Below the pieces are notes generated by a model, which saw only the letters and a list, made by a program, of their open reading frames with translations, searched no databases and had not been told where the DNA came from. The position numbers were made by a program, and so were the translations under genes. Below, one piece after another: positions 9,745 through 28,775 of a DNA stretch of 64,000 bases; the first letter of the stretch is position 1; every line of letters begins with the position of its first letter. The stretch covers positions 5,282,501-5,346,500 of the forward strand of contig NZ_CP097800.1 of assembly GCF_000612545.2 (NCBI RefSeq), in the 5' to 3' direction. Source of the stretch: Streptomyces sp. PCS3-D2 (GTDB lineage: Bacteria > Actinomycetota > Actinomycetes > Streptomycetales > Streptomycetaceae).

Positions 9745-9752
9745 ATAAAGCC

Positions 9753-11829: not shown

Positions 11830-11905
11830 GTGCGCAGCTCCTCGAAGCCCCCGCGCCGCCCTTCCATGATCCTGTATCGGAGGGCGGCGGCGGGGCTGCG
11901 GGCTG

Positions 11906-12362: not shown

Positions 12363-12392
12363 GCGCATTTTGGTCACTGTCTAAAAATGCGC
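12363..12392. terminator. Hairpin after gene 12397-12924, possible terminator
   Basis: GCGCATTTT (12363-12371) pairs with AAAATGCGC (12384-12392) across a 12-nt loop, in the AT-richest part of a 278-bp gap (12119-12396) with no gene. It starts five bases after the stop of the leftward gene at 12397. The rest of the gap holds no open frame I can support. It is also the most likely place for the promoter of the terminase operon and possibly the packaging site, though no clear consensus is visible. Confidence 0.45.
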
Positions 12393-12396
12393 GAAA

Positions 12397-12924
12397 CTAA
12401 TCGCCGAAGGCCAGCTGGGTCACTCCCGGCTGCTCCTCCAGCCGCGGCCCGGCCGGAGCCGCTGGGACATTGCGGTGCTGCTTCAGCCACCAACCGAACT
12501 GCCAGTTCCGGCAGGTTCGGAACAGTCGGGCATGGCGGAGTGGTTCCCCGGCGGGGATGGAGTGCTCCCCCCACCCGGTGATGGGCCGCGCGTTCCGAAG
12601 TCGTACCGCCAGGCCGGGCACGAGGGCGTCCCCCTCCCACTCATGGCCGGGCGCGTACTCGAAGCCGAGGTGTGCGTTGCGCCCCCAGTCCCACGGGATC
12701 GGCAGAGCGCACAGGTACCAGGCTGCCGGCGGATTCGCCGCCGGCAAGAGCAAGCTCTGACGCTTCAGCCGGTGGTTCACGGCTGGCCTGTCGCACTCCG
12801 CGAAGGTCTTCAGGCAGTGCTGAGTCAGATCGACCTGACGCACCCCTGCGAGCCACATGATGCGGAACGCGTCGCGCGACTCTATTTCTATGCGAACCCC
12901 ATCCGAGTTCGCTCCCGATTTCAT
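12397..12924 (-). CDS. Protein of unknown function beside ParB-methyltransferase
   Basis: Codes for 175 aa from ATG 12924, two bases after the stop of the ParB-methyltransferase gene, so the two are co-transcribed. The protein is rich in tryptophan, with 'PPAAWYLCALPIPWDWGRNAHLGFEYAPG' split over a central region and 'RNWQFGWWLKQHRN' near the end. I recognise no family. The tight linkage suggests a shared role in the predicted modification or partition unit upstream of the terminase. Confidence 0.6.
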   Translation of the reverse strand: MKSGANSDGVRIEIESRDAFRIMWLAGVRQVDLTQHCLKTFAECDRPAVNHRLKRQSLLLPAANPPAAWYLCALPIPWDWGRNAHLGFEYAPGHEWEGDALVPGLAVRLRNARPITGWGEHSIPAGEPLRHARLFRTCRNWQFGWWLKQHRNVPAAPAGPRLEEQPGVTQLAFGD

Positions 12925-12926
12925 TT

Positions 12927-14366
12927 CTACCCCTCCGAATGAGCGTTCCTTTCCTTGATCAATTCTATCAATATTTCCACAATTCCGAAATGCTTGTCGT
13001 GTCGATGCCCGTTGGGGTAAGGCATATTGAATTCATTCCGGAAAGCCTCCTCGTATTCCTCGGCGGGGAACGCGCGGGGCTTGCGGCACACGGCCTTGAG
13101 GGTTGCCCTGGTGGCGTCGCTGAGCTCGACCTCTTCGAAGTACCGAGACAGCAGACCGCGCAGGCTTTCCGGGGTGTGGTACCTGATCCGCTGCCACTTG
13201 CCGCGCACGAACCGCATGTCCACGTTCTCGCTGTCGAGAAATTTCAGCCGCTCCGCATCCCGGCTGATGGAGTGTTCCGAGTTCTCGTATGCCTGCTCGC
13301 GGTGCAGGTTGCGGGTGCCAATGGCGACCGTGCCGTCCTTGGCGCACAAGGCGTTGACCGTGAGCAGCACCCAATGCTGGTACTCCAGGCTCGTCGTCGC
13401 GTTGATCACCGAGTCCAGGACGACAACCTCGTACAGGCCCCGCTCGCGCAAGTCCCGTTCGATGGTGCGGATCATGCCGACGATGCCTCGGATGTCCAGG
13501 CTGTACTTGCCCTTGAGGGTGCGGTACGGCTCATAGTCGTGGACCTGGTAACCCTGCGCCTTCAGGTGGCGGGCGTAGTCCCCGTGGCCGGCGCCGAAGT
13601 CGACGACGCGGTGCCCGGTCGTCAGCCACGGCAGGACCAGCTGCTCCCACGTCTCGCTCTTGTACCGGACCTGGTCCGCCTTGGCCTTCGAGGAGTGCTC
13701 GCGAAGGCGGTTGGGCTGCACGATGTGCTGGTTCCACACGGGGGCCTGCTCCTCCAGACCGGTCCAGTCGTAGACGCCGTACTCGCCGGTCAGGTCCTCC
13801 ACGAGCTGGCCGGCGTCGAAGGAAGCGACGGTCCAGGCCAGGACATCGAACCGCTGCGCCTTCGCGACCGCGGCGTACTCCGCGTTGAGGACAACACGGC
13901 CCTGGTCGTCGATCACGACCGACCCCCAGGGGCCGTGGCCAGCGGTCATGAAGCCGATGGCCTGCTGGAAGGGGATGTTCTTGGAAGCGACGACCTCGAT
14001 CGTCTGCCACGGGATCCAGCACCACTGACCGATCGGCCCCGCCTCCGCGTACACGACGGACGACTCGGTCTCGACTCGGTTGTGGAGCAGGTTGAACTTG
14101 ATCTCGTCCTGGAGGCGGACCTTCTGCGGGAGGATCATCGCGGGCACCGTCTCCTGCCCGATGGCCTTCAGGCCCTTGGTTCGCTGGTGACCTGCGACCA
14201 GCGTCCCGTCGGCGTTCAGGATGACGGGCTTGACGACGCCGTGACGGCGCAGGGAGCCCTGGAGCCGCACGAACGACGCCTCGGACAGGCGGCGCGGGTT
14301 GTAGTCGGCGGGGCGGAGGTCGGACAGCGGGTACGCCGGATCGAACCGGACGTCGAGCGGGTTCAC
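12927..14366 (-). CDS. ParB/Srx-like domain fused to class I methyltransferase
   Basis: Codes for 479 aa. Residues 1-100 form a ParB/sulfiredoxin-type domain: 'DYNPRRLSEASFVRLQGSLR', then 'GVVKPVILNADGTLVAGHQR', with GHQRTKG in place of the usual GERR box. From about 250 there is a Rossmann-type SAM-binding motif (VVDFGAGHGDY, 253-263) and a later acidic loop (VVVLDSVINATTS). The DPPY/NPPY motif of typical adenine or N4-cytosine DNA methylases is not seen, so the methylated target is unclear. Phages often use ParB-plus-methylase genes for DNA modification. It starts in ATGA overlap with the second ParB-like gene. Confidence 0.8.
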   Translation of the reverse strand: MNPLDVRFDPAYPLSDLRPADYNPRRLSEASFVRLQGSLRRHGVVKPVILNADGTLVAGHQRTKGLKAIGQETVPAMILPQKVRLQDEIKFNLLHNRVETESSVVYAEAGPIGQWCWIPWQTIEVVASKNIPFQQAIGFMTAGHGPWGSVVIDDQGRVVLNAEYAAVAKAQRFDVLAWTVASFDAGQLVEDLTGEYGVYDWTGLEEQAPVWNQHIVQPNRLREHSSKAKADQVRYKSETWEQLVLPWLTTGHRVVDFGAGHGDYARHLKAQGYQVHDYEPYRTLKGKYSLDIRGIVGMIRTIERDLRERGLYEVVVLDSVINATTSLEYQHWVLLTVNALCAKDGTVAIGTRNLHREQAYENSEHSISRDAERLKFLDSENVDMRFVRGKWQRIRYHTPESLRGLLSRYFEEVELSDATRATLKAVCRKPRAFPAEEYEEAFRNEFNMPYPNGHRHDKHFGIVEILIELIKERNAHSEG

Positions 14367-15033
14367 GCGCTGATCTCCTCTGCGGCGGCGTGGTGCTCCT
14401 CGTTCAGGACGTGCCAGCCGAACCCGAGGTCAGAGTCGTGCTCGTCGACGAACTTCCGGTAGAGGCCGTTCAGGAACTCGACCTCGTCCTGGGTGATCCG
14501 TACGCGGGTCGAGGACCACTGGAGGTACCCCCACTGGAGGTAGTCCACCGTTGCCGCCGCACCGGTCCCCGCTCCATCGCTGGGCAGCTCGATCGGCGCC
14601 GGCAGAGAGGTGTCATCGAGGAGGTCGTCCAGCTGCGCCTGGTCGTAGCCGGTGCCGTCGAGGTCGGGTAGATCAGTGAGGATGTCCGCCAGGAGCTGCG
14701 TGTCGTACCCGGCCAGGTCACTCGTCCGGTTGTCGACGATGACGATCTTCGCGGCCGTGTCCTCGTCCACGTCGAGCCAGGTGACCGCGACCTCCTCCCA
14801 CCCCAGGGCCCGGGCGGCCTTGACGGTGTGGTTGCCCGCCAGGATCTCGTTCGGCGCCCGGTGACGGACCCCTTGTTGACCACGACCGGCTTGTACTGGC
14901 CGTGGGTGGCCAAGGACTCGGTGATCGCCGCGAGGTCGCCGGTTCGCGGGTTGCGGTAGTAGTGCGAGAGGCCTTCGAGCGGCACAGCCAGTGCCGCGAG
15001 GGAGTCGGGGATGCGGGGTGCAGCAGTAGACAC
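14363..15033 (-). pseudogene. ParB/Srx-like protein with a single-base frameshift
   Basis: The first half (ATG 15033 to about 14855) reads as a ParB-like domain (YYRNPRTGDLAAITESL, HGQYKPVVVNKG). The second half continues in another frame with the expected 'PNEILAGNHTVKAARALG' and a further 130 aa ending at 14363. The two halves join if one C is restored in a run near 14857, turning CGCCG into CGCCCG and giving the family's usual G-R-P-N-E. The repaired protein would be about 223 aa. This is either a true inactivating deletion or a sequencing error in a C-run. The downstream half alone could start internally at the GTG or ATG near 14770. Confidence 0.75.
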
Positions 15034-15096
15034 GTGGGCTCCAGCCCCGCGCCCACCTTCGACCTTAGGTGATCAAGCAGGAGGCCCCGCGGCCCT

Positions 15097-15894
15097 TCAT
15101 CCGCGGACCGCCACCGTGCACACGACTCGGCGCGCATGGTGGAACACCCCCGCAGGGGAGTACGACCGGAGAGCCGCGCGCAGGTCTCGTTCGTACGCTG
15201 CCGTCCTGGTCCCCAGGATCTCCGGGCTCGTGTAGGACATGGAGAACTGCAATCCAACCAGGTCGTCCAGCCCGTACGTGAGGGGCTGATCGAACACGGC
15301 GGTGTCCGCCCGCGGGAACGGCGATGCCGACAAGTCGAGCTCTGGATCGTCCCCGCGGTGATGGGGTCCATGGCGTTCCCGGTAGTCAGGCCCCAGGTAC
15401 TCGGCACCGACGGACTCGATCACGTCCAGCCAGCCGGGCCGAGTGCTCGTGTCGCTGCTGCCGACGAACACCACCCCGCCGGCGGGCTCGACGAGGTCGT
15501 CCAGATCGGACAGCACCTGTGCGGCGTCCATCCAGCCGAGGGACCTGCCGAGCGTGGCCACTGCGATCTGCGGGAGCCCAAGCACCGGGAGGTCGGCAGC
15601 CCACGCCACCCGCCAGGCGACACCCACCGCCTTCTCGGAGGCGGCGAGTCGTACACCCTCGGCGACCATGGCCGGCTCAGGATCAACGGCGTGGACGACC
15701 TTGACGTACCGGGACAGTGGGATCGCCAGCGTTCCCGGACCGCACCCGAGGTCGAGCAGCTGCTGCGTCCCATCAAGCTGGAAGCGGTCACGGATCAACT
15801 CGAACACCGCGCTCGGGTACCCGGGCCGGTAGGCGGCGTAGAACGGCGCCGCTGCCGCGAAATTCGTCACGCCACCATCTACAGCGGCTGCCAC
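15097..15894 (-). CDS. Class I SAM-dependent methyltransferase
   Basis: Codes for 265 aa. GTG 15894 gives the longest form; GTG 15870 is an alternative. SAM-binding motif I is clear ([10 protein letters not shown], 46-55), followed by an acidic residue at the end of the second strand (HAVDPEPAM) and a post-motif ([14 protein letters not shown]). This is the pattern of methyltransferases acting on small molecules. It is divergent from the glutamyl-tRNA synthetase across 101 bp and 63 bp upstream of the frameshifted ParB-like gene, so it may belong to either the ParB unit or the cargo pathway. Confidence 0.8.
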
Positions 15895-15995: not shown

Positions 15996-17417
15996 ATGAA
16001 GCCGATCCGCGTCCGATTCGCCCCCTCGCCGACGGGCATGTTCCACGTCGGCGGAGCCCGCTCCGCCCTCTTCAACTGGGTCATCGCTCGACAGGACGAA
16101 CAGGGGAAGTTCGTCCTGCGGATCGAGGACACCGACGAGGAGCGCAACCGTCCGGAGTGGGTGGAAGGGATCATCAACGCCCTCGCCGCCATCGGCATCA
16201 ACGCCGACGATCCGCACTTCGAGGGGCCCTTCTTCCAGTCGAAGAACAAGGACGCCCAGCGCGAGGCCGCCCTCCGGCTGTACGCCGAGGGGAAGGCGTA
16301 CTACTGCGACTGCACCCGCGAAGAGCTCGTCGCACGTACCGGCTCGCAGCACCTCGGGTACGACGGCCACTGCCGGGGCCGCGGACTCGAGTTCGTCGAG
16401 GGACGAGCCCTGCGGTTCCGCACCCCCGACGACGCCGCGACCGTCGTGAACGACCTGGTGCGCGGCCGTACGGAGTTCCCGAACAACGCGATGGAGGACT
16501 TCGTCATCGCCCGGGGCAACGGCAGCCCCGTCTTCCTTCTGGCCAACGCCGTGGACGACATCGACCAGGGCATCACCCACGTGGTCCGCGGCGAGGAACA
16601 CCTCTCGAACACACCCAAGCAGCAGGTCCTGTGGGAGGCGCTGGGCGCGGAACCGCCCGTCTGGGCTCACCTCCCGGTCATCGTGAACGAGAAGCGGCAG
16701 AAGCTCTCGAAGCGCCGCGACAAGGTGGCGCTGGAGGACTACCTCGGCGAGGGGTACCTCCCTGACGCGCTCGTCAACTACCTGATGCTGCTCGGCTGGG
16801 GTCCCTCGGACGGGGTGGAGATCCGGCCCTTCGCCGAGTTCGCGGAGCTGTTCCGGCTGGAGGACGTCAACAAGGCGTCCGCCTTCTTCGACGTGAAGAA
16901 GCTGTCCGCCTTCAACGGCGACTACATCCGAGCCCTGACCCCGCGGGCGTTCGTCGAGGCGTGCCGGCCGTGGCTGTCCGGCGATGTCGTCCCCTGGCAG
17001 GCTGAGGAGTACGACGAAGCCACCTGGCAAGCCGTCGCCCCGTACGCACAGACCCGGATCGCCGTGCTGTCGGAGATCACCGCCTACGTGGACTGGCTGT
17101 TCCTCCCGGAACCGCCGCAGGACGAAGCCTCGTGGACGAAGGCTATGAAGCCGGGGGCCGAGGCGATGATCGCGGGCGCGAGGAAGGCGTGGGGCGCGCT
17201 GGACGAGTGGACCACCGAGCACCTGAGGAGTGCCCTGGAAGGCGTCGCGGTCGAGCAGGGCCTGAAGCTGGGCAAGGCGCAGGCGCCGGTGCGGGTCGCT
17301 GTCACAGGCCGGACGGTCGGCCTGCCGCTCTTCGAATCGGTCGAGGTCCTGGGCAGGGATCGGACCCTGGCTCGCCTGGATGCCGCAACCGGCCGCCTGG
17401 AGAGCCAGGATCGCTAG
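15996..17417 (+). CDS. gltX: Glutamyl-tRNA synthetase, extra copy in prophage cargo
   Basis: Codes for 473 aa, the full length of a bacterial GluRS with its anticodon-binding half, so not a short Glu-Q-RS. The class I signature is present ([18 protein letters not shown], with HVGG for HIGH, residues 11-27) and KLSKR at 236-240. The zinc site C104, C106, Y122, C126 is intact. It attaches glutamate to tRNA-Glu in the cytoplasm. It is the only rightward gene in the cargo region and ends three bases from the convergent glycosyltransferase stop. In this setting it may be a resistant copy that protects the producer, or may supply Glu-tRNA to a biosynthetic step. It could also be just the host gene displaced into the element. 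ATG 15996 was chosen from the motif position and the -10 spacing. Confidence 0.92.
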
Positions 17418-17420: not shown

Positions 17421-18407
17421 TCAGGTGATCTTGGCGAGTACCTTGCTCCACTCCTCGGCGAAATAGGCCTGATTGAACTGGGCCAGGGTCTCGTACGCGG
17501 CCCTGGCCTCTTCGCCGGGCGCCTGCGCGCGCCTTCGGACCTGCTCGGCGAGGCGATTCGTATCCGGCGGCGGCTGCTGCGTCAGCGCCGCGAGGTCACG
17601 AAGCCCTGCGAGGGGCTGCACCAGGCTGGGCAGCCCCAACAGCAGGGCCTCGGCCGCGCAGCGGCTCCAGCCCTCGTGCATCCGTGGCCGGAACACCCCA
17701 ACATCGCAGGCCCGGAGTAGACGCAGGTACCGGTCGCGGGGCAGGTCCAGGTGGGTGCCGGTGAAGCCGATCGTGTTGTTCCCGCTCGCCACGACCTGGA
17801 TCCCGTGGGCGCCGGCGAGCTCCTTGGCCACGCATTCGGTGCCTTTCCAGTGCACGGCCTTGCCCGTGTAGACGGCGATGGTGCCGGGCTCGAAGGAGAA
17901 CTCCGCACGGCAGCGAGCACGATCGACGGCGCGGGCCTTGTCGATCTCCGCCATGTCGAAGGCGTTGTAGATCACGCGGACATCCCGCACCCCTCTCTCG
18001 CGAAGGAACTCGGCCCAGTACGGGGCCACGCAGACCACGGCCGCGCACTCGGGTAGCAGCGAGAAGAGGTATTGCCAGAGTGCCGCTTCGAGCGGGGCCG
18101 AGTCGTGCTGAAGAGGTTCGTAGTGGTGCAGGATGAAGATTGTTCTCTGCCGCATCTCGCGGCTGAAGAGGATCAGGCTCAGGTCGTCCCACACGAACGA
18201 GATGTCCGGGCGGTCCAGCGGCGGCATGAGCGGAGCCAGCCGCTGCAGGTGGCGGATCTTCCGCCACCTGCGCACCGGGTCCTGCCGCTTGTGATCGGTC
18301 AGCGTCTGCCACTCGACCAGGTCAGCGGTCACCTCGTGGAGCATGCGGAGGTACACCCTGCCGCCGGTCCGGCCGATCGGTTCCATGGAGTACACGGTCT
18401 GTGCCAC
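17421..18407 (-). CDS. GT-B glycosyltransferase (cargo operon, last gene)
   Basis: Codes for 328 aa from GTG 18407, which has GGAGGAA six bases upstream; the frame is open further up but overlaps the HD gene. The C-terminal half has GT4/GT1-type signatures: 'VYTGKAVHWKGTECVAKEL' and 'EGWSRCAAEALLLGLPSLV', with the E-x7-E motif that binds the nucleotide-sugar donor. The N-terminal half contains 'FVWDDLSLILFSREMRQRTIF'. It would transfer a sugar to the pathway product or to DNA. It is the eighth gene of the operon and overlaps the HD gene by 86 bp. Confidence 0.82.
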   Translation of the reverse strand: MAQTVYSMEPIGRTGGRVYLRMLHEVTADLVEWQTLTDHKRQDPVRRWRKIRHLQRLAPLMPPLDRPDISFVWDDLSLILFSREMRQRTIFILHHYEPLQHDSAPLEAALWQYLFSLLPECAAVVCVAPYWAEFLRERGVRDVRVIYNAFDMAEIDKARAVDRARCRAEFSFEPGTIAVYTGKAVHWKGTECVAKELAGAHGIQVVASGNNTIGFTGTHLDLPRDRYLRLLRACDVGVFRPRMHEGWSRCAAEALLLGLPSLVQPLAGLRDLAALTQQPPPDTNRLAEQVRRRAQAPGEEARAAYETLAQFNQAYFAEEWSKVLAKIT

Positions 18408-19017
18408 GGCGTTCCTCCTTTTCCTCGTACCGGTGGTACTCGGATCGCAGCAGCTCCGCGGCGGCTGCCAGGTGGGGGCTGAGGTGCCGACACCGTTCCG
18501 CGAGCGGCAGTTGGAACTCCACCAGGTCCTCGATGTAGCGGTCCCGCCGGCCTGCATCCGGGGACCGGGACAGGTCCCTGAGGTTGTGGATGCGGTCGGC
18601 GAAGCGGATCACCAGCGGCACCGGTGCCAGGGCGGACGTCTTGGCCCGCCACGCCTCCCGGTCTCCGGGCCCCTTCGCCCTGCCCTGAAGGCGGTGGTCG
18701 GGGGTGATCGCCGCGATTCGGTCGGCGAACTTCTCACCGAGCCGCGCGGCGATCACCGGGCGCGACTCCGGGGAGACCTCCAGGGCATCGTGGAGGAGCC
18801 CCACCATCAGGGCCGTCGTGCAGGTCACCCGGAGCTCGTCGCGCAGGATCCGTACGACCGCCGCCGGGTGCTCAACGTACGGGGTGCCCTGGTCACGGGT
18901 CCGCCCGTCGTAGATGGCCAGCGCGACGGGGACGCACACGGCGGCCGTCCTCTGCTCATCGGGGGTCCACCCGTCCGCGCCGAGCGCGTCCCAGAGCGCG
19001 AGCGCGTCTTCCTTCAT
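18322..19017 (-). CDS. HD-domain phosphohydrolase related to (p)ppGpp hydrolases
   Basis: Codes for 231 aa from ATG 19017. It matches the HD hydrolase domain of RelA/SpoT/Mesh1 proteins: 'GTPYVEHPAAVVRIL', 'MVGLLHDALEV' and 'VIRFADRIHNLRDL'. The catalytic HD pair is present. The usual E-D pair after HD reads E-V (HDALEVS instead of HDxxED), so activity may be altered. No synthetase domain is attached. It probably cleaves a phosphate or pyrophosphate from a nucleotide, which fits a nucleotide-modifying operon. Its start overlaps the carbamoyltransferase stop by 4 bp. Confidence 0.8.
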   Translation of the reverse strand: MKEDALALWDALGADGWTPDEQRTAAVCVPVALAIYDGRTRDQGTPYVEHPAAVVRILRDELRVTCTTALMVGLLHDALEVSPESRPVIAARLGEKFADRIAAITPDHRLQGRAKGPGDREAWRAKTSALAPVPLVIRFADRIHNLRDLSRSPDAGRRDRYIEDLVEFQLPLAERCRHLSPHLAAAAELLRSEYHRYEEKEERRGTDRVLHGTDRPDRRQGVPPHAPRGDR

Positions 19018-20735
19018 GCCGACATCTCCAGAGGCGGTCGGCCGTGAGACAGCCGGTCAGGGACAAAGAGGGAGTCACCGACGGCCAGAGCGTCGAGGCC
19101 GAGGGAAGCAGCTGCCTCCACCGCCTGGGCCGCGGTGCGCAGGATCGGGGTGCCCTTCAGGTTGAAGGACGTGTTCAGGAGCATCGGCAGGCCGGTGCGG
19201 CGGCAGAACTGCTCCAGTACCTCTTCCAGCCCGCTGTGCCCCGGGTGGACGACCTGCGCCCGCGCCGTCCCGTCACGGTGGACGATCGCCGGAACGCGGT
19301 CCGCCTTCCCGGGGAGGATCCGAACAACCCGGTTCATGAACGGATCACCCTCGCCCGCGAACCACTGGGAGGCGTAGCGGGCCAGCACGGCAGGCGCGAA
19401 CGGCCGGTAGTCGGCCCGGCGCTTGAGCTGGTTGATCGTGTCCCTGGTGTCGCGGCGGCCGGGGTGCGCCAGGATCGACCGGTGCCCCAGGGCGCGCGGC
19501 CCGAACTCCATCGCACCCTGCACCCAGCCGACGACATAGCCGTCAGCGAGGAGCCCGGCCACGGCAGGCGCCACACTGCCGCCGAGCCGGGGCACGGCGT
19601 GCCAGTCGGTCGGCAGCAGGCCCAGGCCTGCCCCGTCGGGTTCCGGGCCCCAGCCGGCATCGGTCGGCCGGGCCAGCGGCTCCTGTTGCAGCTGGTGGTG
19701 CCACCCGTACAAAGCGGCGCCCACAGCGGTACCTGCGTCATGCGGTGCGGGGGCGACGAAGACGCGGTCGAACCCGGACTGCTCGGCGAGGGAGCCGTTT
19801 AGGGCGGAGTTGAGGGCGCAGCCGCCGGAGAAGACCAGGTCCGCGGCGCCGGTCAGCTGGCGCAGGTGCTGAGCGACGTGGACGACGGCCCCGGCGAACG
19901 CCTCCTGGACGGCGGCCGCGAAGTCCGCGCGGACGTCGAGCGGGATCACCCCAGCGTTGGCGGACGTCCACTCGTAGCCGCCGGCACGTAGCGGGGTTGC
20001 GGCATCGGCCGAACCGTACGGCGCCAGGACGTGGATCTCGCCGTCCTCGCCCAGGCCGATCACGTGGGACATCTGGGAACGGAACCGCTCGGGGTCGCCG
20101 TAGGCGGCCAGCGCCATCATGCTCCCCTCGGGTTCGTCGCCCGGCGGGATCACTCGGTGGGCCATGTTGCGGTAGAAGTGCCCCAGGGAGTGGTGGATCC
20201 GTTCGATCCCGCTCCTTCCGGCGGCGAGGGTGGGCAGAGCCTGGTGGATCCGGTCAATCTTGCCGTGGCGCAGGTCGTAGCCGGTGATCCTCTCCCGCCC
20301 GGGTCCGTACTCGAACCCGAGCGGCGAGCCGCCGGCGTCGATGACGAGCCCGGCCGCGTGGTCGAGGTCGGACATGAGGTACCCGGCCAGGACGTGCGCG
20401 GTGTGGTGGGAGACCAGGCGGAGCTTGCGGCCCAGCGGGTCCGGGAGCATCGCCGCCAGCTCTTCGTGCTCGGTCGCGAGCCACTGGCCCGACGACGGGC
20501 TCGGACGCATGGCTGCGGCCCACACGGTATCGACCTCGTGCGGGTCGATGCCCGCCGCCTCGAGGCACCAAGCCAGGGATTCGGTGGGCGCGGTGAGGAC
20601 GCCCTTCCGTCCGCCGTGCCGCCGGTTGTGCTTGAGGCCGGACCAGCGTTCCTCTTCGGCCGCGTACAGCTGGCCGTCCACGACGAGCGCCGCGGAAGTG
20701 TCGTGGTGGAAGTTCAGGCCCAGGGCGACAGCCAT
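19014..20735 (-). CDS. Carbamoyltransferase, NodU/CmcH/TobZ family
   Basis: Codes for 573 aa from ATG 20735, which overlaps the preceding stop as TGATG. The N-terminal Kae1-like domain is typical (GLNFHHDTSAALVVDG, then EEERWSGLKHN) and the active centre histidines at 'SHHTAHVLAGYL' are present. The C-terminal carbamoyltransferase domain is clear (GAMEFGPRALGHRSILA, RADYRPFAP). Enzymes of this family move carbamoyl from carbamoyl phosphate through carbamoyl-AMP to a hydroxyl group of antibiotics or sugars. Here it would decorate the pathway product; length is normal for the family. Confidence 0.93.
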   Translation of the reverse strand: MAVALGLNFHHDTSAALVVDGQLYAAEEERWSGLKHNRRHGGRKGVLTAPTESLAWCLEAAGIDPHEVDTVWAAAMRPSPSSGQWLATEHEELAAMLPDPLGRKLRLVSHHTAHVLAGYLMSDLDHAAGLVIDAGGSPLGFEYGPGRERITGYDLRHGKIDRIHQALPTLAAGRSGIERIHHSLGHFYRNMAHRVIPPGDEPEGSMMALAAYGDPERFRSQMSHVIGLGEDGEIHVLAPYGSADAATPLRAGGYEWTSANAGVIPLDVRADFAAAVQEAFAGAVVHVAQHLRQLTGAADLVFSGGCALNSALNGSLAEQSGFDRVFVAPAPHDAGTAVGAALYGWHHQLQQEPLARPTDAGWGPEPDGAGLGLLPTDWHAVPRLGGSVAPAVAGLLADGYVVGWVQGAMEFGPRALGHRSILAHPGRRDTRDTINQLKRRADYRPFAPAVLARYASQWFAGEGDPFMNRVVRILPGKADRVPAIVHRDGTARAQVVHPGHSGLEEVLEQFCRRTGLPMLLNTSFNLKGTPILRTAAQAVEAAASLGLDALAVGDSLFVPDRLSHGRPPLEMSA

Positions 20736-21535
20736 CAGGCACCTCCGATCAGGGCGGGCACGACGGCGTGCCCGGAGTCGCTGTACTCGTGGCACTTCAG
20801 GCAGAACTTGTAGTGGACGGCCCGCGGTGCGAAGACCTTGTCGGCGAAGTCGCTGTCCCACACGGAGAACTCCGAGTCCTCCTTGGCCATGGCGTTGAAG
20901 CAGCGGTAGCAGGACCCGTCGGTCTCGACCATGAGGTGCTGGTCGAGGTAGCGGGCGCACAGGCCACCGAGAAGGTTGTCGGGCTGCCCGACGTCGATGT
21001 GGTGGACGTCGTTGGTCACGTGGATCGAGCCGGTGGCGCGGGCCAGAGCGGCGAAGCCTTCCATCCGTTCGTCGGAGACCTTGCCGCGGATTGAGTTCAG
21101 CACGACGGTCTTGCCGGCCGCACGCAGGACCGGAACGACCTGGTGGACCTCGTTGTAGTTGTCGTGCTCGTCGTCCGCGCCGATGAGGACCTGGTCGTAT
21201 ACCTCCAGGGTCACGTCCATGAGCCTGCGGTTCCGGGCAAGCGTGATTGCGTTGGTCCCGAGCACCATCACCACGTGAGGCAGGCGGTCGTGCGCGAGCT
21301 GGGAGAGCTCCGGGAAGCCGCGGTGCACCGTGGGCTCGCCGCCGTTGATGTGCAGCTGGGCGAACGGAACGCGGTCCAGTTGGTCGAGCACGGCGGAGAA
21401 GGTCTCGATGGGCATGTTCACGCCGTGCGCGCCGTCCGCGAAGATACAGAAGTCGCAGGACCGGTTGCACTTCGTGGTGATCTTCACCTTGGCGGTCTTG
21501 AGGGTCCGCGTGGGTAACCGAGACTGAGTGATCAC
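20735..21535 (-). CDS. Radical SAM enzyme with C-terminal cysteine cluster
   Basis: Codes for 266 aa from GTG 21535 (GTGA overlap with the preceding gene). The radical SAM cluster motif C-x3-C-x2-C is at C23, C27, C30, and GGEP at 65-68. Five further cysteines lie at 193, 209, 212, 245 and 248 (ETDGSCYRCFNA and YKFCLKCHEYSD), which fits one auxiliary iron-sulfur cluster in a SPASM or twitch-like region. The substrate cannot be told from sequence. It is much shorter than peptide-modifying SPASM enzymes, and no precursor peptide gene is seen nearby. Confidence 0.85.
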   Translation of the reverse strand: MITQSRLPTRTLKTAKVKITTKCNRSCDFCIFADGAHGVNMPIETFSAVLDQLDRVPFAQLHINGGEPTVHRGFPELSQLAHDRLPHVVMVLGTNAITLARNRRLMDVTLEVYDQVLIGADDEHDNYNEVHQVVPVLRAAGKTVVLNSIRGKVSDERMEGFAALARATGSIHVTNDVHHIDVGQPDNLLGGLCARYLDQHLMVETDGSCYRCFNAMAKEDSEFSVWDSDFADKVFAPRAVHYKFCLKCHEYSDSGHAVVPALIGGA

Positions 21536-22656
21536 GAGTTGGGGTCCCTTACCTGTGTGATCGGGCCGCTCAGGAAGTCCTGAACGACGGACCGGGCCAC
21601 GTTCCAGCGGGTGAGGAGGTCCCGCAGGGTACTGGCCGTGGTCGTGGTTCCTTGTGGGGGCAGAAGGTCCGCCATCGCGCCGGCCAGGCCCCGGTGGGCG
21701 CCCGGACCGCTGAGGGCCAGGGCCTGAAGGGCGTCCCGGGCGCTGCTCAGCTCCTTTGCCTCCCGGGCGATCAGGTAGTTGGTGTGCACGCCGGGAGGCG
21801 GGGTGAGGTAGTAGCGCCACCTTGCCGTCTTCGTCCGCAGCATGCCTGCCGTCATGGTCCACGCACGGACCGCCCCGATGGCGGGGTCCTCGTCGGGGAC
21901 GGTCTGGTCCGAGGGGCGGATGAGGCGAGTGGCCGCGTCCACTGCTGCGTGCGCGGACCGCAGCAGCTCGTCCACGGGCAGAGCAGGGCGGGAATGGACG
22001 GGGCCGGAGTGGGAGGAGAACAGCTCTGCGTACGGCACCGCGTCCTGCGGCCTCCACCGGACGAGGGCTTCCAGCTTCCCCTGGAGGCGGGTGCGCTTGG
22101 ACAGGCAGGCGGCGGCGAACCAGCAGGGGGCGACGTAGTGCCAGGCGACACAATGGCGGGCGTAGCCGGTGAGGTCTCCGGTGACGTTGTCGGCCGAGTC
22201 GACCCCCAGGCGGTACCGGCCGCCGATGCGGGATTTGAGCAGGGCGCCATAGAAGCGGGCGTCAGCGGTCGTCCAGGGAGCGGAGTCGGCGTCCTTGGCC
22301 CACGGCTCCAGGAGCTGGTGCTCGCCGTGGGCGACGGACCAGGTAGCGACCTCCGCGGGTTGGACCAGGCCCGCATCCAGCTCGGCGGTGGTGAAGATGA
22401 AGCCGGGCGGGTGTTCCAGGATCCGGGCATGCAGGGGGTCCGCCGCCACGGCCCGGGTGTGGGCCCGGAACAGGCGGTCCCCGTAGTTCGCCCATGAGGG
22501 CGGGGTAGAGCTGAGGATCAGCCGGAGGTCGAGGTCGGAGTGCGGGGCGATGAGGTCGGGGCGCTGCCACTTGTGGGTGATCAGGACCGGTCGAAGGCCC
22601 GCCCCGGTGAGCTCGCGCAGGTAGCGGTCAGTCGCCTGTGCGTAGAGGCCGGTCAC
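21532..22656 (-). CDS. Nucleotidyltransferase-like protein
   Basis: Codes for 374 aa from GTG 22656 (GTGA overlap with the MoaA-like gene). The N-terminal part has 'HSDLDLRLIL', which looks like the metal-binding D-x-D of the polymerase-beta nucleotidyltransferase fold, although the normal preceding G-S helix start is weak (LIAPHSD). The rest is helical and rich in tryptophan, with 'DSADNVTGDLTGYARHCVAWHY' and a later 'KSRIGGRYRLG'. It may transfer a nucleotide to a sugar or another acceptor, or bind nucleotides. The fold assignment rests on one short motif. Confidence 0.5.
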   Translation of the reverse strand: MTGLYAQATDRYLRELTGAGLRPVLITHKWQRPDLIAPHSDLDLRLILSSTPPSWANYGDRLFRAHTRAVAADPLHARILEHPPGFIFTTAELDAGLVQPAEVATWSVAHGEHQLLEPWAKDADSAPWTTADARFYGALLKSRIGGRYRLGVDSADNVTGDLTGYARHCVAWHYVAPCWFAAACLSKRTRLQGKLEALVRWRPQDAVPYAELFSSHSGPVHSRPALPVDELLRSAHAAVDAATRLIRPSDQTVPDEDPAIGAVRAWTMTAGMLRTKTARWRYYLTPPPGVHTNYLIAREAKELSSARDALQALALSGPGAHRGLAGAMADLLPPQGTTTTASTLRDLLTRWNVARSVVQDFLSGPITQVRDPNS

Positions 22657-23762
22657 TCGCCGGCGCCTTCGGGCTGGCGCACCGCGCACCCGCCGCCGAC
22701 GTTGTTGCTGAGGATGGGGAGCAGGATGGGGGTGCCCTCTGGGCGGGGCGTGCGGTCCCAGCGCAGGTCGTAGTCCACGTAGTGCTTGCCACCCCATGCC
22801 TCGTTGCTGTCGCGCTCGAGCATGGCGGTGAACAGGTGGGCGAACGCGTCGTCCAGCGTGCCGCCCGCGATGTGGGGGCGGAGCTGGATGTCACGGTTGT
22901 GCAGGATGCAGGGACGGGCCACCCCGCTCGCGGTCACCTTGATCCGGTTCGCGTCCGAGCAGGTGGCACACGAGCTGTTCGAGATGAAGCCGATGGACCC
23001 TTTCCAGCCCTCCGGCTGGCTGTACTGGCCCGGGCTGCGGACGCCGAGGCTGGTACGCGAGACCTCTCCGGCTCCCGTGAACCAGTCGGACAACAGGGTG
23101 CGCACCTCGGCCTCGGGGACGAACTCCTCGTCGAAGAACTCCTGCGCCGGGCCGATGTTCTGGAGCTCGATGAGACGCACCGCCACGGGCAGGGTCCGGG
23201 CGATGGAGGCGACGGCGAACGCGTCCTCGACGTAGGAGCGCATCAGGACGCAGTTCAGCTTTACACGCAGGCCGAGCTTCAGCGCCTCTTCGACGGTGGC
23301 CATGGAGACGTAGGGGTCGCCGCCGCCCATGATCTTCCGCGACCGCGCAGGGTCCAGGCTGTGGATGGACACGTTCAGGTACGTCAGGCCGGCCTCGGCG
23401 AACGCGGGCATGGAGAGGCCGCGGCGCAGGTTGCCGTGCGTGGTCATCCCGATCTGCGCTCCGTCGCCGAGTCCGTCGGCCAGCGCGCGGACGACCCCGA
23501 GGATGTCCTTGCGGAGGGTCGGCTCGCCGCCGGAGCAGTGCGCCTTCCGTAAGCCCCAGCGGCCCCCGGCAGCGGCGAGCGCGGTGAACTCGTCGACGCT
23601 GAGCAGCTTGTCCTTGTGGCCGTAGTCCGGCATGCAGTGCGGCTTGCAGAACACGCAGTCGAGGTCACAGATCCCGTTCAGGGTGAACGCGTAGTACGGG
23701 TGGTTACGGCCCGTTGCCCGGAACGCTTCCAGCACGCGCTGGTGCTCGGCGGTCAGTTCCAT
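22653..23762 (-). CDS. MoaA-like radical SAM enzyme
   Basis: Codes for 369 aa from ATG 23762 (TGATG overlap). The first cluster motif is C32, C36, C39; 'SGGEPTLRKDI' (77-87) and 'VKLNCVLMRS' and 'VRLIELQNIG' align with GTP 3',8-cyclase (MoaA). A second cysteine set at C265, C268 and C285 follows 'GFISNSS', as in MoaA, but the spacing is CX2CX16C instead of CX2CX13C. MoaA makes a GTP-derived cyclic compound for molybdopterin; a divergent copy in a cargo operon without moaC or other cofactor genes suggests use on a different purine nucleotide. An NNVGGG stretch lies near the end, where MoaA has its C-terminal GG. Confidence 0.82.
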   Translation of the reverse strand: MELTAEHQRVLEAFRATGRNHPYYAFTLNGICDLDCVFCKPHCMPDYGHKDKLLSVDEFTALAAAGGRWGLRKAHCSGGEPTLRKDILGVVRALADGLGDGAQIGMTTHGNLRRGLSMPAFAEAGLTYLNVSIHSLDPARSRKIMGGGDPYVSMATVEEALKLGLRVKLNCVLMRSYVEDAFAVASIARTLPVAVRLIELQNIGPAQEFFDEEFVPEAEVRTLLSDWFTGAGEVSRTSLGVRSPGQYSQPEGWKGSIGFISNSSCATCSDANRIKVTASGVARPCILHNRDIQLRPHIAGGTLDDAFAHLFTAMLERDSNEAWGGKHYVDYDLRWDRTPRPEGTPILLPILSNNVGGGCAVRQPEGAGE

Positions 23763-24751
23763 CAGTAGCTTCCTTCGATCTGGTGGAGGGCGGTCTCGGC
23801 CATGCCACGCATGGGCCGGCCGGAAAGGTAGTTGTGGAGGTTGGCCGCGAAGAAGCGGAGAGCGCCGTCCATGTACGCCCTGGAGAAGGCCGCGCTCTTC
23901 GGCGTGAGGAGGACCCGGGGGTGCCGGCGGAGGGGATGCTTGCGGGGAAGCGGACGCGGAGTGGTGACGTCCAGGGCGACGCGCAGCCTGGGCTTCTCAT
24001 GCAGGGCCTGCGTCATCGCCTGGTGATCGACCGTGGACCCGCGGCCAAGGTTGAGGAACACAGAGTCCGGCTTGAGCGCGGCGAAGGCCGCCGCGTCGAA
24101 CATGCCGTCCGTGGTCGGGGACTTGGGGAGGAGGTTCACGACGACATCCGCGTTCGGCAGGTGATCACGCCACTGGGTCGCGGGCACGTAGTCGATGAAA
24201 GTGTGCTGCCCCTGGGGGAGGGTCCGCCGTACGCCCGTCACGTCCATGCCGAAGGCGTGCCCGAGGAGCCCGAGGTGGGCGCCGATGCTGCCGCAGCCGA
24301 CGATCAGCATGCGCGAGCCGGCCAGGTCGAAGAACTCCTCGGCCATGGCCTCCTTCCACGAGGACCGGTTCCTCTGGAGGCGGGAGCTGGTGATGATCCC
24401 GCGGGAGAAGGCCAGGAGCATGCCCATGGCGTGCTCGGCGACCGGCTGGGCGTGGAATCCGTAGGACCGAGTCACCGTGATGCCGGAGGACAGGAGCTGC
24501 GGGACGGGCAGGTGGTCGGTGCCGGCGGACGGCGTTGCGAACCAGCGGAGTCCGAGGTGGTTCCGAAGCCAGTCCGGGTCGAATTGCCACCCGAGGTAGA
24601 CATCGGCCTCCGCGAGGGCAGCGGGCAGCTCGTGATCCGAGACCGCGTGGAACCGCACCGTCGGGAACGAGGTCTGGAGGCCGACCAGGTGGTGGTCGCG
24701 GATGGTGAAGAACTCCTGCTCGGAGTTCAGGGCGATGATGACGGCGGTCAC
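23762..24751 (-). CDS. D-2-hydroxyacid dehydrogenase-like protein lacking catalytic Glu/His
   Basis: Codes for 329 aa from GTG 24751 (GTGA overlap). The NAD-binding motif is intact (VGCGSIGAHLG) and the catalytic arginine segment is present (FLNLGRGSTVD). The usual 'EPLP' reads 'RPLP' and the usual 'TPH' reads 'TPKSAAF', so the catalytic Glu and His of this family are replaced by Arg and Lys. It may bind NAD and a different substrate, or act in a non-classical way. Fold assignment is firm, activity is not. It is second in the operon. Confidence 0.82.
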   Translation of the reverse strand: MTAVIIALNSEQEFFTIRDHHLVGLQTSFPTVRFHAVSDHELPAALAEADVYLGWQFDPDWLRNHLGLRWFATPSAGTDHLPVPQLLSSGITVTRSYGFHAQPVAEHAMGMLLAFSRGIITSSRLQRNRSSWKEAMAEEFFDLAGSRMLIVGCGSIGAHLGLLGHAFGMDVTGVRRTLPQGQHTFIDYVPATQWRDHLPNADVVVNLLPKSPTTDGMFDAAAFAALKPDSVFLNLGRGSTVDHQAMTQALHEKPRLRVALDVTTPRPLPRKHPLRRHPRVLLTPKSAAFSRAYMDGALRFFAANLHNYLSGRPMRGMAETALHQIEGSY

Positions 24752-26091
24752 AGCAGCTCTCCTCCGTTTGGCGTGAGGGCCCAGGCTGCGCACCGCTGCA
24801 TGGCGCGGCGGATCGTGGAGGCGTAGTCGTGCTTCTCGGTGAGCAGTCGGGTTCCTGCCTGCGCGAGGCGGGCGCGATCCGCGGGGGTCGTGGCCAGCGC
24901 CCGCCGGAGTGCCTGGGCTAGGGCCGGTGGCTGCTCGGGCGGAGCCGAGAACCCCGTCGAGCCCTCCACCACGGTGCGGGCCAGACCGCCGGCGGAGGTG
25001 GCCACGACGGGGCCCGCGCCTGCGGCGAAGCACTCCAACGGGATCCGGCCGAAGGGTTCCTTGCGGGAGGGGACGACCAGGGCGCGCATCCTGGCATCGT
25101 TCACCCAGCCTCGAATCGCGGGGTCAAAGCGCGTGAGCAAGGTGGCGTTGACGTTGTGGCGCTTCAGCAGGTCGGCCAGCCGACGCTGGAGCGGGTTTTG
25201 CTGGTATGCGGAGGTCACGGCTGCGAGGACGAGATGCGGGAGCGGGAGTCCGTCCACGCGGAGTATCGCGAAGGCCTCCACCAGGTCCTCGAATCCCTTC
25301 GACGGCTCGGCGCGGCCGAAGGAGAGAACGAACCCGTCCTCCGCGGCTGGCGGGAGCTGTGGCGCCGTGACCTCCTGCAAGTCCTCTTCACCGAGGAGCA
25401 GACCGTTTGGGAGGTCGATCACTGCGGCCTCGGGTATGCCGCAGGCGGTGATGAGGTGTTCGCGCATGTGGGGGGAGATCGCTGCCACCCAGCCACCGCG
25501 CTGAACGGCAGTGGCCATCCCCCGCCGCTCCCAAGCGATCTGTTCGTACGCGGCCGGCTCGGTGAGCAGGGTCGAGGACCTGGGGATGAGCAGGATCTCC
25601 ACCCCCGGGGCGGCGTAGGAGCCCACGGCCAGGAACGGAACGTCGCACCCGATCAGCAGGCTCCCGCGCCCCAGATAGGGCGCGGCGCGGCGCACGGCCA
25701 TGGCACACAGGACCTCGAGGTCTGATGGGGTTGAGAGCAGAGACGCGCCGTCCACCGGCAGGACGATCGCTCGGACTTCCGTCAGCAGGGCCCCCATCTC
25801 GCGACTCCACCGAGGGTCGTACCCTGCGGTCTGTGGGGTGTGGAGAACAGGCACCACCACGAGCCGGCCCCGAGGAACCATCCGCGCCAGAGCCGTGATG
25901 AACGTGCGGTTACTGAATCCGCTGCCGGAGCACGCGCCGTAGACGCCCTCGTGAGCGAGTACCACCACGAACCGGTCCGCATGGGCGTCTCGCGCTCGGG
26001 TAGCCCCCCTCGGGGCCTTGATCCTCGGTTCGGCGGTGAGACGTCTCAGGGCTAACGGGGCTGTGGGGCCGTCAGGTTCAACGATGGTCAT
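24748..26091 (-). CDS. GT-B glycosyltransferase (cargo operon, first gene)
   Basis: Codes for 447 aa from ATG 26091, chosen for the GGAAGG seven bases upstream; the frame is open further up to 26364. Features of GT4-type enzymes are visible: 'LSFGRAEPSKGFEDLVEAF' in the donor half and 'EPFGRIPLECFAAGAGPVVA', the E-x7-E donor site. The N-terminal domain contains 'VLAHEGVYGACSGSGFSN' and 'YEQIAWERRG'. It is the first gene of the eight-gene operon, divergent from the Scr1-like regulator. The sugar and acceptor are unknown. Confidence 0.85.
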   Translation of the reverse strand: MTIVEPDGPTAPLALRRLTAEPRIKAPRGATRARDAHADRFVVVLAHEGVYGACSGSGFSNRTFITALARMVPRGRLVVVPVLHTPQTAGYDPRWSREMGALLTEVRAIVLPVDGASLLSTPSDLEVLCAMAVRRAAPYLGRGSLLIGCDVPFLAVGSYAAPGVEILLIPRSSTLLTEPAAYEQIAWERRGMATAVQRGGWVAAISPHMREHLITACGIPEAAVIDLPNGLLLGEEDLQEVTAPQLPPAAEDGFVLSFGRAEPSKGFEDLVEAFAILRVDGLPLPHLVLAAVTSAYQQNPLQRRLADLLKRHNVNATLLTRFDPAIRGWVNDARMRALVVPSRKEPFGRIPLECFAAGAGPVVATSAGGLARTVVEGSTGFSAPPEQPPALAQALRRALATTPADRARLAQAGTRLLTEKHDYASTIRRAMQRCAAWALTPNGGELL

Positions 26092-26336: not shown

Positions 26337-27212
26337 ATGCCGCCAGCTGTCCCCAGCAATCCACGCTCCGCCCGCAAGCAGTTCGGCGCCGACCTCCGTC
26401 GGCGGCGCGAAGAGCGAGGGCTCAGCGCCGAGGAAGTTGGTACGGAGATCGGCTGCTCCGCCTCGAAGGTCACGCGCATCGAGACCGGTGACCGTTCGGC
26501 CAACCCGGATGATTTCGGGAGGCTGATGGACTTCTACGACGTCCCCGAGGCCGATCAGGAACACCTGGGGGACCTCTTCAGGGCAGGGCGGCGGCGCACG
26601 AAGGAGTGGTGGCACAGTTACGGCGATGTCCTGACCAAGAACTACGCCGAGTACATCGCGCGCGAAGCCGAATCGGACGAGGCCTGCGATGTGCAGCAGG
26701 GTTTCGTGCCTGCCATGTGCCAGACCGAGGCGTACGCCCGGGCAGTGACCAGCATCGGCTACGCCGCTTTGGGACCGGACCAGATAGACGCTCTGGTCGA
26801 GGTCAAGATGCGCCGCCAGCGTCGCATCCTGTCCGAGGACCCCATGCGGTTCAACGCAGTGATCACCGAGGCCGCACTGCGTTTCGAGTGCGGGGGAAGG
26901 GATGCGCACCTCGAACAGCTCCAGCACCTGCGGAGGGTGATGGAGCTGCCCCACGTCGACCTGCGCATCATTCCGTTCAGTAAGGGCGAATCCGGCATCG
27001 TCACCGGTGGGTACACACTGTTCTGGAACGACGGCCAGGACGAGCCCACCGCCGCGTTCGCCGAGTCCGTCGCCGGCAACGTCCACATCGACGATGCCCT
27101 GGGCCTGAGGCGTCTCAGCAGGCTCTACCGCTACCTCTCCGAGGCGGCACTTCCTGCCGAGGAGAGCATCGACCTGATCGACCGAACCCAGAAAGAACTG
27201 AAGACATCATGA
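26337..27212 (+). CDS. XRE/DUF5753 regulator, Scr1 family
   Basis: Codes for 291 aa from ATG 26337 with AAGGAG at the right distance. The N-terminal XRE HTH (FGADLRRRREERGLSAEEVG, CSASKVTRIETGDRS) is followed by a DUF5753-type domain with 'VQQGFVPAMCQTEAYARA' and 'LPHVDLRIIPFSKG'. In Streptomyces coelicolor the related Scr1 works with a small DUF397 protein and activates antibiotic production. Here the same arrangement, followed by two DUF397-type genes, diverges from the cargo operon, so control of that operon is a reasonable inference. Confidence 0.85.
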   Translation: MPPAVPSNPRSARKQFGADLRRRREERGLSAEEVGTEIGCSASKVTRIETGDRSANPDDFGRLMDFYDVPEADQEHLGDLFRAGRRRTKEWWHSYGDVLTKNYAEYIAREAESDEACDVQQGFVPAMCQTEAYARAVTSIGYAALGPDQIDALVEVKMRRQRRILSEDPMRFNAVITEAALRFECGGRDAHLEQLQHLRRVMELPHVDLRIIPFSKGESGIVTGGYTLFWNDGQDEPTAAFAESVAGNVHIDDALGLRRLSRLYRYLSEAALPAEESIDLIDRTQKELKTS

Positions 27213-28228: not shown

Positions 28229-28237
28229 CCATGACGG

Positions 28238-28331
28238 TGGTGCCCACCCCGGGAGTCGAACCCGGATCTCTGCGGCCGATGTCCTGGCGTAAGCCGGTGC
28301 CGCGCACCTCTACCAGTTGGGTCAGGCGGGC
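28238..28331 (-). tRNA. tRNA-like gene with 22-nt anticodon loop
   Basis: On the leftward strand it shows a 7-bp acceptor stem (GCCCGCC with GGTGGGC, one G-U), discriminator A and an encoded CCA. It has a perfect T-arm (CCGGG, TTCGACT loop, CCCGG) and a short D-arm (ACC with GGT around a CAACTGGTAGA loop). The length is 94 nt. The only good anticodon stem is GCGGC/GCCGC, which leaves a 22-nt loop instead of 7, and no 5-bp stem with a normal loop can be found. I cannot assign an anticodon. It may be a degenerate phage tRNA or carry an insertion, and it is not obviously an attachment site. Confidence 0.6.
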
Positions 28332-28344
28332 AAGGGCCCCAGCC

Positions 28345-28614
28345 CTACGGGCCGGCGGCCTCGGGGGCCCCGACGTAGCGCGCCCAGACCGCCCCGCTCG
28401 TCTCGCCGGTCTTGCGCGAGGTTGCCTCGAAGGCGCCGGCCGGACGGAAGGCCCTGATCTTGCCCTGCCGGATGCGGTAGGCCAGGTTCGCGGCCTGGGT
28501 CTTCAGGTCGTGGTCGGAGATGTGCGCCCAGTCGCCCGGGCGCTCGCGAAGAGCGCGTGCAGTGCGACCTGCCTCGGTCTCGTCGTCCGGCAGCGGGTCG
28601 AAGCGGGCGTGCAT
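28345..28614 (-). CDS. Small prophage protein of unknown function (89 aa)
   Basis: Codes for 89 aa from ATG 28614, which overlaps the previous stop as TGATG. Mostly helical and charged, with 'RPGDWAHISDHDLKTQAANLAYRI' and 'RAFRPAGAFEA', which suggests a compact DNA- or RNA-interacting protein. I recall similar proteins in actinobacterial prophages but no function. Confidence 0.55.
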   Translation of the reverse strand: MHARFDPLPDDETEAGRTARALRERPGDWAHISDHDLKTQAANLAYRIRQGKIRAFRPAGAFEATSRKTGETSGAVWARYVGAPEAAGP

Positions 28615-28775
28615 CAGTGTTCTCCGTTCGTGGCTGCGGCGGATTCGGCCAGAGCCCGAATGCGGGCCGCTGTCTCGAACTGCGCGTCGGCGAGGTGGTC
28701 GCAGAGCTTGTTGGCGAGCGCCGCGATCTCCGCGAAGGTGGCGGTGACCGCGGCTGTCGCGTCGGTGGTGGTCAT
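28614..28775 (-). CDS. Small helical protein (53 aa)
   Basis: Codes for 53 aa from ATG 28775, coupled at both ends by TGATG overlaps. Alanine-rich and helical throughout (FAEIAALANKLCDHLADAQF). Too small to classify. Its tight coupling to neighbours is the main reason to keep it. Confidence 0.5.
   Translation of the reverse strand: MTTTDATAAVTATFAEIAALANKLCDHLADAQFETAARIRALAESAAATNGEH

Follow-up and report, generated by a model that had tools for sequence, protein, structure and literature searches.

The Streptomyces sp. PCS3-D2 sequence analysed here, a stretch of 64,000 nucleotides called the window, is part of a 7.6 Mb genome (C1:5282501-5346500). It carries an operon of eight genes, A to H, and convergent with it a gene for a second glutamyl-tRNA synthetase (GluRS), termed GluRS2. 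Operon and GluRS2 together behave as a mobile cassette, lodged in this strain in a prophage. On balance the better account is that the cassette is a cluster whose small-molecule product inhibits GluRS, GluRS2 being the immunity gene. Its product is probably antibiotic-like, and GluRS2 probably protects the cell from it. This account rests on a foreign GluRS that is tied to the operon and persists without it, on enzymes of small-molecule type, on glycosyltransferases that are optional and on an NsdA-type regulator. The wider proposal is about evenly poised and leans slightly to the doubtful side: that this is the first natural-product family aimed at GluRS, its carbamoylated, glycosylated nucleotide- or aminocyclitol-like members made by a new MoaA-like radical S-adenosylmethionine (SAM) pathway, spread as mobile DNA through actinomycetes, able to ride a prophage and lodge beside defence genes, and leaving behind a free-standing resistant GluRS.

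The original prediction, made from the letters of the window, described eight overlapping leftward genes, and a check of the open reading frames (ORFs) in positions 17421-26091 confirms all eight and their joins. The overlaps are 4 bp for A/B (24748-24751), C/D (22653-22656), D/E (21532-21535) and F/G (19014-19017), and 1 bp for B/C (23762) and E/F (20735). The 86 bp overlap of G/H (18322-18407) hinges on the chosen start codon, with alternatives downstream at 18395 and 18386. On the opposite strand, the GluRS2 gene terminates 3 bases past the end of H. The view of A to H as one coupled biosynthetic unit is supported, and the unit is larger than eight genes, as the convergent GluRS belongs to it. 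The operon is not a chance arrangement, because the eight-gene order is kept in relatives and because codon positions show purifying selection. Compared with the closest relative, S. goshikiensis (L031), third codon positions differ at 1.5-3.4 times the mean rate of first and second positions, with the highest ratio in GluRS.

Linkage of GluRS2 to the operon

Two samples define the distribution. A set of 296 genomes of the genus was searched with C and with cassette-type GluRS, and the genomes of 84,980 species were scanned with two peptide patterns of E, a scan that misses variants without E or with other E motifs. C is found at about 70% identity in 14 of the 296 genomes, the window's own included, and all nine genes are present in the same order, GluRS convergent, in the 13 others. 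The scan gave 42 loci, of which 40 are labelled Streptomyces, one Planomonospora and one Nonomuraea. The nine genes are complete in 41 of these, and order and strands agree in all 42; the Planomonospora locus is without A and H and keeps the core and GluRS2. In one locus (L039) 4.5 kb with transposase-like ORFs (14952-18075) separates H from GluRS.

A cluster for a synthetase inhibitor is expected to carry an extra synthetase and never to occur without it. The operon is accompanied by GluRS2 in 14/14 genus genomes and 42/42 scan loci (two with short frames), and no genome of the 296 has C without a cassette-type GluRS. The housekeeping gltX of the window's strain lies elsewhere in the genome and shares 48% identity with GluRS2. 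A full-length second GluRS was found in all 22 cassette genomes checked (the window's own, 13 of the genus and 8 from the scan loci, including Planomonospora and Nonomuraea), the cassette copy of one (G006) being in two pieces. Four cassette-free genomes gave a single GluRS match each (E-value of 1e-60 or better).

The reverse association is looser. Cassette-type GluRS (at least 69% identity) is found in 19 of the 296 genus genomes, 14 with C and five without, and all five of the latter also have a housekeeping GluRS. A first scoring, which took at most five candidates per genome, missed the housekeeping copy of one of them (G288); a cassette-type enzyme as the sole GluRS of that genome was rejected when this copy was found. 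In two of the five, a match to the end of H remains beside GluRS2: residues 301-328 in G025 (L217, 8029-10429) and residues 272-327 in G010 (L219, 9229-10833). This 3′ end of H is the scar of a lost operon. The other three show no further cassette gene in the 20 kb around GluRS2. Thus GluRS2 outlives the operon while the operon is unseen without GluRS2, which is the behaviour expected of an immunity gene.

The GluRS2 sequence is well preserved. HVGG and KLSKR, motifs with known roles in GluRS, are intact in 41 of 41 compared copies, and of the ten proteins compared between the window and S. goshikiensis, GluRS2 shows the highest conservation (80%).

Discordant trees of the two halves of GluRS2

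Identity between the cassette GluRS and the housekeeping GluRS of Streptomyces rises near residue 305, and the two halves were placed in separate trees. These are quick trees of nine of the 41 cassette copies and five of the 18 housekeeping copies, with a few long branches. For the catalytic half, the cassette copies form one clade, whose neighbour is the GluRS of G325, a genome from the same phylum (64-68% identity); the approximately unbiased test rejects a grouping of the cassette copies with those of the Streptomyces housekeeping gene (p=0.00045). In the tree of the C-terminal half, the housekeeping copies fall within the cassette clade (support 97) as sister to the copy of one scan locus (L058; support 100). 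By these trees GluRS2 is a different GluRS, not a copy of the host's.

Since the half trees are discordant, cassette and housekeeping genes probably exchanged their anticodon-binding halves, and the nesting favours a transfer from the cassette type to the housekeeping gene. Because the C-terminal half of GluRS2 groups with the housekeeping copies, GluRS2 should use the host tRNA-Glu, whichever the direction of exchange. The housekeeping gltX of Streptomyces (e.g. L030) appears as a mosaic essential gene, with its anticodon-binding half inside the cassette type and its catalytic half outside.

Fixed differences between the two kinds of GluRS occupy 74 of 181 conserved columns in the catalytic half, against 0 of 63 in the other half. 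This bias was considered as a sign of selection for resistance and rejected, because the housekeeping C-terminal half nests in the cassette clade and recombination explains the bias at least as well.

Gene content and candidate product

The earlier domain assignments of A to H agree with Pfam and NCBIfam calls (Table 1), D by fold only. C displays the radical SAM core, the Mob_synth_C domain and the CxxC..C second cluster of MoaA (GTP 3′,8-cyclase). Its CATCSDANRIK..C sequence is invariant in 43 sequences, and it scores below the curated MoaA cut-off (171.8 versus 284.05 bits). By hand count, C has three more residues than MoaA from the second Cys to the Arg motif, and it has NRIK instead of TRAR; presumably Ala stands where Arg17 of MoaA should be (position likewise counted by hand). 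C is not a canonical MoaA. The second radical SAM enzyme, E, has the CxxxCxxC motif and five further conserved Cys, all invariant in 33 sequences; one locus (L048) was left out as its chosen frame contains a stop. A structure model of E (predicted local distance difference test 71; alignment from 32 of the 42 scan loci) matches EpeE, SuiB, BlsE, MoaA, SpeY and BtrN, enzymes of Twitch/SPASM type included, and beyond a probable radical SAM fold the model is too uncertain.

D gives no Pfam or NCBIfam match. Its predicted fold (alignment from 31 of the 42 scan loci) resembles AadA / ANT(3″)(9) at 9-14% identity in the nine best matches, with Foldseek E-values no better than 6.7e-03. Unlike AadA, it has an extra C-terminal helical domain and lies in a biosynthetic operon. 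Homologues of D were found in 6 of 246 order-level and 2 of 396 phylum-level genomes, the window's own included, all in the same genus. In B, Lys ('LTPK') occupies the position of the catalytic His in at least 95% of 43 sequences, and those 43 have no conserved Glu; B thus lacks the His and catalytic Glu that we take to be the canonical residues of D-2-hydroxyacid dehydrogenases. The HD and ADR..N motifs of G are conserved. A search of Rfam gave no match.

From this gene content, the core enzymes C, E, B, D, F and G may assemble and modify a small molecule of nucleotide- or aminocyclitol-like type, B contributing a reductase step of dehydrogenase fold. F would carbamoylate it, and A and H would add sugars. 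The product would inhibit GluRS, perhaps as a mimic of the glutamyl-adenylate intermediate to which D adds a nucleotidyl group, and an insensitive GluRS2 would keep charging tRNA-Glu and so confer immunity. The original prediction of a diffusible nucleoside-like molecule survives in its small-molecule branch; it is altered here to a GluRS inhibitor, with a GluRS2 gene that, like the methyltransferase gene next to it, lay outside the stretch then considered.

The two glycosyltransferases, the carbamoyltransferase and the nucleotidyltransferase would also suit a surface or storage glycoconjugate, with GluRS2 as a hitchhiker of other function. This explanation leaves both the linkage of GluRS2 in 42/42 loci and its survival after operon loss without a reason, and we regard it as decidedly improbable.

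Clusters of this general kind, a synthetase inhibitor with a resistant synthetase, are known. The ascamycin (acm) pathway, like the cassette, is found in Streptomyces and is described, in the excerpt available, as a nucleoside pathway with a second, more resistant synthetase, AcmD, in the cluster (PMC12945691). AcmD is an alanyl-tRNA synthetase, not a GluRS, and ascamycin is an aminoacyl nucleoside sulfamate. To our knowledge the acm enzyme set also differs from the cassette's two radical SAM enzymes, carbamoyltransferase, AadA-like protein and HD_4 protein. In the cluster for SB-203207 and SB-203208 (sbz), an extra isoleucyl-tRNA synthetase, SbzA, is likewise described in that excerpt as a self-resistance protein (PMC12945691). 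SbzA also installs Ile on the product. The chemistry of the sbz cluster differs from that of the cassette.

A mainly biosynthetic GluRS2 would supply Glu-tRNA or install glutamate on the product. SbzA (Ile) and AcmD/AcmF (Ala) are precedents, as far as the excerpt goes (PMC12945691), and a full-length, tRNA-binding GluRS does accompany the operon in 42/42 loci. However, the Pfam scan gave no GNAT, Fem, CDPS or LanB-like acceptor enzyme, and GluRS2 persists in five genomes without C, where a purely biosynthetic role would be idle. This role is unlikely. A further likeness is found in polyoxin biosynthesis, where PolH (radical SAM) and PolJ (phosphatase) act in sequence on a nucleotide, according to the part of the source available (PMC5365060), as C and G may do. 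PolH is likened to C by description, not by sequence, and in contrast to polyoxin and nikkomycin clusters the nine genes include a GluRS and no enolpyruvyl(-UMP) transferase domain.

In agreement with the original prediction, a literature search found no described pathway and no cluster with this gene content, and no firmer claim than that is made. As far as the search reaches, the target and the gene set appear new. The GluRS inhibitors mentioned in the excerpt of a 2021 review of synthetase inhibitors are synthetic only (PMC7916415), and the abstract of another paper names glutamyl-sulfamoyl-adenosine as the best inhibitor known for E. coli GluRS (PMC4393105). The titles and abstracts returned by the search include no natural small-molecule GluRS inhibitor; one such paper concerns the protein kinase toxin HipA. 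The conserved cassette with its dedicated second GluRS opens a natural GluRS inhibitor to direct test and leads to about 40 named strains in which it is found. The window also illustrates a biosynthetic cassette carried as prophage cargo, alongside the probable gene exchange between cassette and housekeeping GluRS.

Several points weigh against a GluRS inhibitor with self-resistance. The product and its target we infer. There is no exporter among the conserved cassette genes, and restriction and CRISPR genes adjoin a good part of the cassettes, which would suit a defence role too. The count of five orphan GluRS2 genes versus no orphan C is small (0.5^5 = 0.03). Short cassette GluRS frames occur in two scan loci, of 303 amino acids in L043, where the other eight genes look whole, and of 399 amino acids in L071, where several other frames merge with one another as well; the cause may be decay or sequencing error, and both loci were left out of the GluRS comparison. 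In the presumed glutamate pocket, position F180 is Phe in 41/41 cassette copies and Tyr in 18/18 housekeeping copies, but two of a set of 30 diverse GluRS, and G325 in its ordinary enzyme, have Phe here too, and F180 was rejected as a mark of resistance for that reason.

Flanks and prophage setting of the cassette

The flanks of the cassette loci, read to 5-7 kb, differ widely. Therefore the cassette is not one stable chromosomal locus and behaves as mobile DNA. Even with S. goshikiensis, nucleotide homology to the window is limited to 15526-25969. No terminase, portal or capsid gene of the window's two prophages, P1 and P2, is found in the 42 scan and 13 genus loci (E-value threshold 1e-10); three scan loci contain a distant relative of the integrase. 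The 121 right-flank proteins match 50 PHROG families. Among the 25 commonest of these, DNA methyltransferases and an endonuclease lead; one family of minor tail/lysin proteins, one of integrases and two of transposases are also present, and terminase, portal and capsid are absent from these 25. Among plasmids the best match to C has 35% identity, the matches being mostly MoaA where annotated, and E gives four weak haloarchaeal matches.

Thus the operon is not specific to the phage, since the same cassette is present in many genomes without the window's phage structural genes nearby. A stable chromosomal locus free of phage genes had been named as evidence that would overturn the prophage interpretation. 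Neighbourhoods free of these phage genes are indeed found, but the flanks vary and there is no single locus.

The position of the operon inside a prophage, close to terminase genes, had suggested a precursor of a hypermodified DNA base for the window's phage. The searches of phage records, IMG/VR and flanks reject this candidate. Among 50,697 phage records the operon was not found (C at 31% identity or less, mostly MoaA where annotated; E without a match), and C was not found in IMG/VR contigs. The cassette is also present away from this phage's structural genes, and it carries a GluRS, for which we know of no place in hypermodified-base pathways. A phage base precursor is therefore highly improbable.

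Upstream of A, a divergent NsdA-family-like regulator is found in 36/42 loci (one, L032, with 35% identity only) and a DAO/ThiO-type FAD oxidase in 35/42; the NsdA family assignment comes from a scan of two of these regulators. Both are found with the cassette in Nonomuraea and the majority of Streptomyces loci, but not in the window. The right-hand side of GluRS is unusually rich in restriction, methylation and CRISPR genes (L033-L071).

These right-hand neighbours bear on an intracellular anti-phage system, in which infection would trigger either a block of translation or a modified nucleotide, and GluRS2 would be the antidote. C5 DNA methyltransferases occur in 11/41 right flanks and no left flanks, versus 0/20 control places (p=0.011; loci not independent). 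Eco29kI-type, Mrr, GmrSD, HsdM and Cas1 proteins are confirmed beyond GluRS in single loci. At 1e-10, 269 PADLOC families are matched for 121 flank proteins versus 22 for 74 control proteins; the flank tally covers the 25 commonest of the 269, and the 20 control places were taken from 10 contigs, each of a different genome. The absence of an exporter would fit, and the two radical SAM enzymes show weak viperin similarity (E-value = 1.8e-08 for E, 2.2e-07 for C). These viperin (pVip) matches are partial, at 23.7 bits for E and 22.7 bits for C versus an NCBIfam viperin cut-off of 180. Moreover, the nine genes fit none of the known systems modelled in PADLOC, with weak partial matches only, the commonest upstream neighbour is the NsdA-like regulator, and such places gather mobile DNA of many kinds. 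The control was a single set of 20 places, which has a few PADLOC matches itself, and the loci are not independent. A defence role is possible, and as the explanation of the cassette fairly unlikely.

In the window, the cassette together with a methyltransferase and a DUF5753 regulator fills an accessory gap of the first prophage (Table 1). ParB and integrases lie to the right of the insert, and the P1 terminase shares 58% identity with its counterpart in Streptomyces phage ZL12. The gap is seen in viral contigs as well. The protein encoded at 12927-14366 retrieved 24 IMG/VR contigs, all 24 with the 14363- and 12927-type genes, 22 with the terminase, 17 with the ParB gene and 14 with integrase-side genes. 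In 20 of the 24, the phage genes flank a variable gap of 1.2-4.8 kb in the same order; the other four show the left side only. Window positions 12950-15850 are partly matched in 23 further genomes of 393, 22 by phage genes and G025 by the methyltransferase only. Of nine phage-bearing relatives that were fetched, eight resume homology on the right side and one (L208) does not. At the right edge of the insert lies a tRNA-Arg (CCG) gene (28238-28331), which is matched in a related prophage region (L209).

The original prediction had placed the operon between prophage regulators and a prophage terminase. The prophage setting and the terminase on the left stand; the supposed regulators on the right are helix-turn-helix (HTH)/DUF5753 and DUF397 genes, not shown to be phage genes and presumably of a common Streptomyces type. 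The DUF5753 protein is accompanied by DUF397 partners and is nearest the Sco1979 family (NF058600, E-value = 1.1e-46), yet it lies below that model's cut-off. It was not found beside other cassettes in the 42 scan or 13 genus loci (E-value threshold 1e-10). Relatives of the methyltransferase are found in S. goshikiensis (L031, 54%), in G025 (81%) and at the edge of a viral contig (L175, 86%). This contig (1-711) ends inside the same methyltransferase beside the same phage gene, and the sister prophage from which it derives may carry the cassette too.

Table 1. Coordinates of the cassette, its junctions and neighbouring prophage genes in the window
Feature	Position	Strand	Matches and remarks
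P1 late genes: capsid, decoration, portal, terminase, ParB-N/methyltransferase protein	5019..14770	-	left of the insert
Left junction	15062..15094		nine relatives lose prophage homology here; the cassette match to G025 stops at 15090
SAM methyltransferase	15097..15894	-	Methyltransf_25; accessory gene of the window's cassette lineage
GluRS2: second full-length glutamyl-tRNA synthetase	15996..17417	+	gltX_bact E=4.4e-126 on the longer ORF 15717-17417; 42/42 loci
H: family 4 glycosyltransferase	17421..18407	-	Glyco_transf_4 E=3.5e-10; lacking in the Planomonospora locus; 41/42 loci
G: HD_4 phosphohydrolase, RelA/SpoT-hydrolase-like	18322..19017	-	HD_4 E=7.7e-10; SpoT-type model E=2.8e-15
F: O-carbamoyltransferase, NodU type	19014..20735	-	Carbam_trans_C E=3.1e-55; Carbam_trans_N E=7.7e-24
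E: small radical SAM enzyme	20735..21535	-	Radical_SAM E=1.9e-10
D: nucleotidyltransferase, AadA / ANT(3″)(9) fold with helical C-terminal domain	21532..22656	-	predicted fold
C: MoaA-like radical SAM enzyme, second Fe-S site (CxxC..C)	22653..23762	-	Radical_SAM and Mob_synth_C
B: NAD-binding D-2-hydroxyacid-dehydrogenase fold	23762..24751	-	2-Hacid_dh_C E=8.5e-40
A: family 4 glycosyltransferase	24748..26091	-	Glycos_transf_1 E=1.5e-18; GT4-conflict E=2.6e-11; lacking in the Planomonospora locus; 41/42 loci
HTH/DUF5753 regulator	26337..27212	+	DUF5753 E=2.3e-42; divergent from A
Right junction zone	28236..28775		start of renewed prophage homology: six relatives at 28360-28424, one at 28236 (tRNA-Arg), one at 28775
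Second prophage, endolysin	46287-47117		
Second prophage, tape measure	51237-53303		
Second prophage, capsid	57509-58699		
Second prophage, portal	59466-61484		
Second prophage, terminase	61683-63494		

Further to the right, positions 36546-37466 encode a 306 amino acid protein whose match to a phage integrase family is confined to that family's C-terminal region (262-575 of 651) and which is perhaps an incomplete integrase; relatives (33-36%) are found in 14 of the 24 viral contigs. The second prophage (38000-64000), HK97-like by its capsid, portal and terminase matches, directly adjoins the first. A 1.7 kb stretch of the window (40605-42341) reappears at another place in the genome (C1:5905206) with 98% identity.

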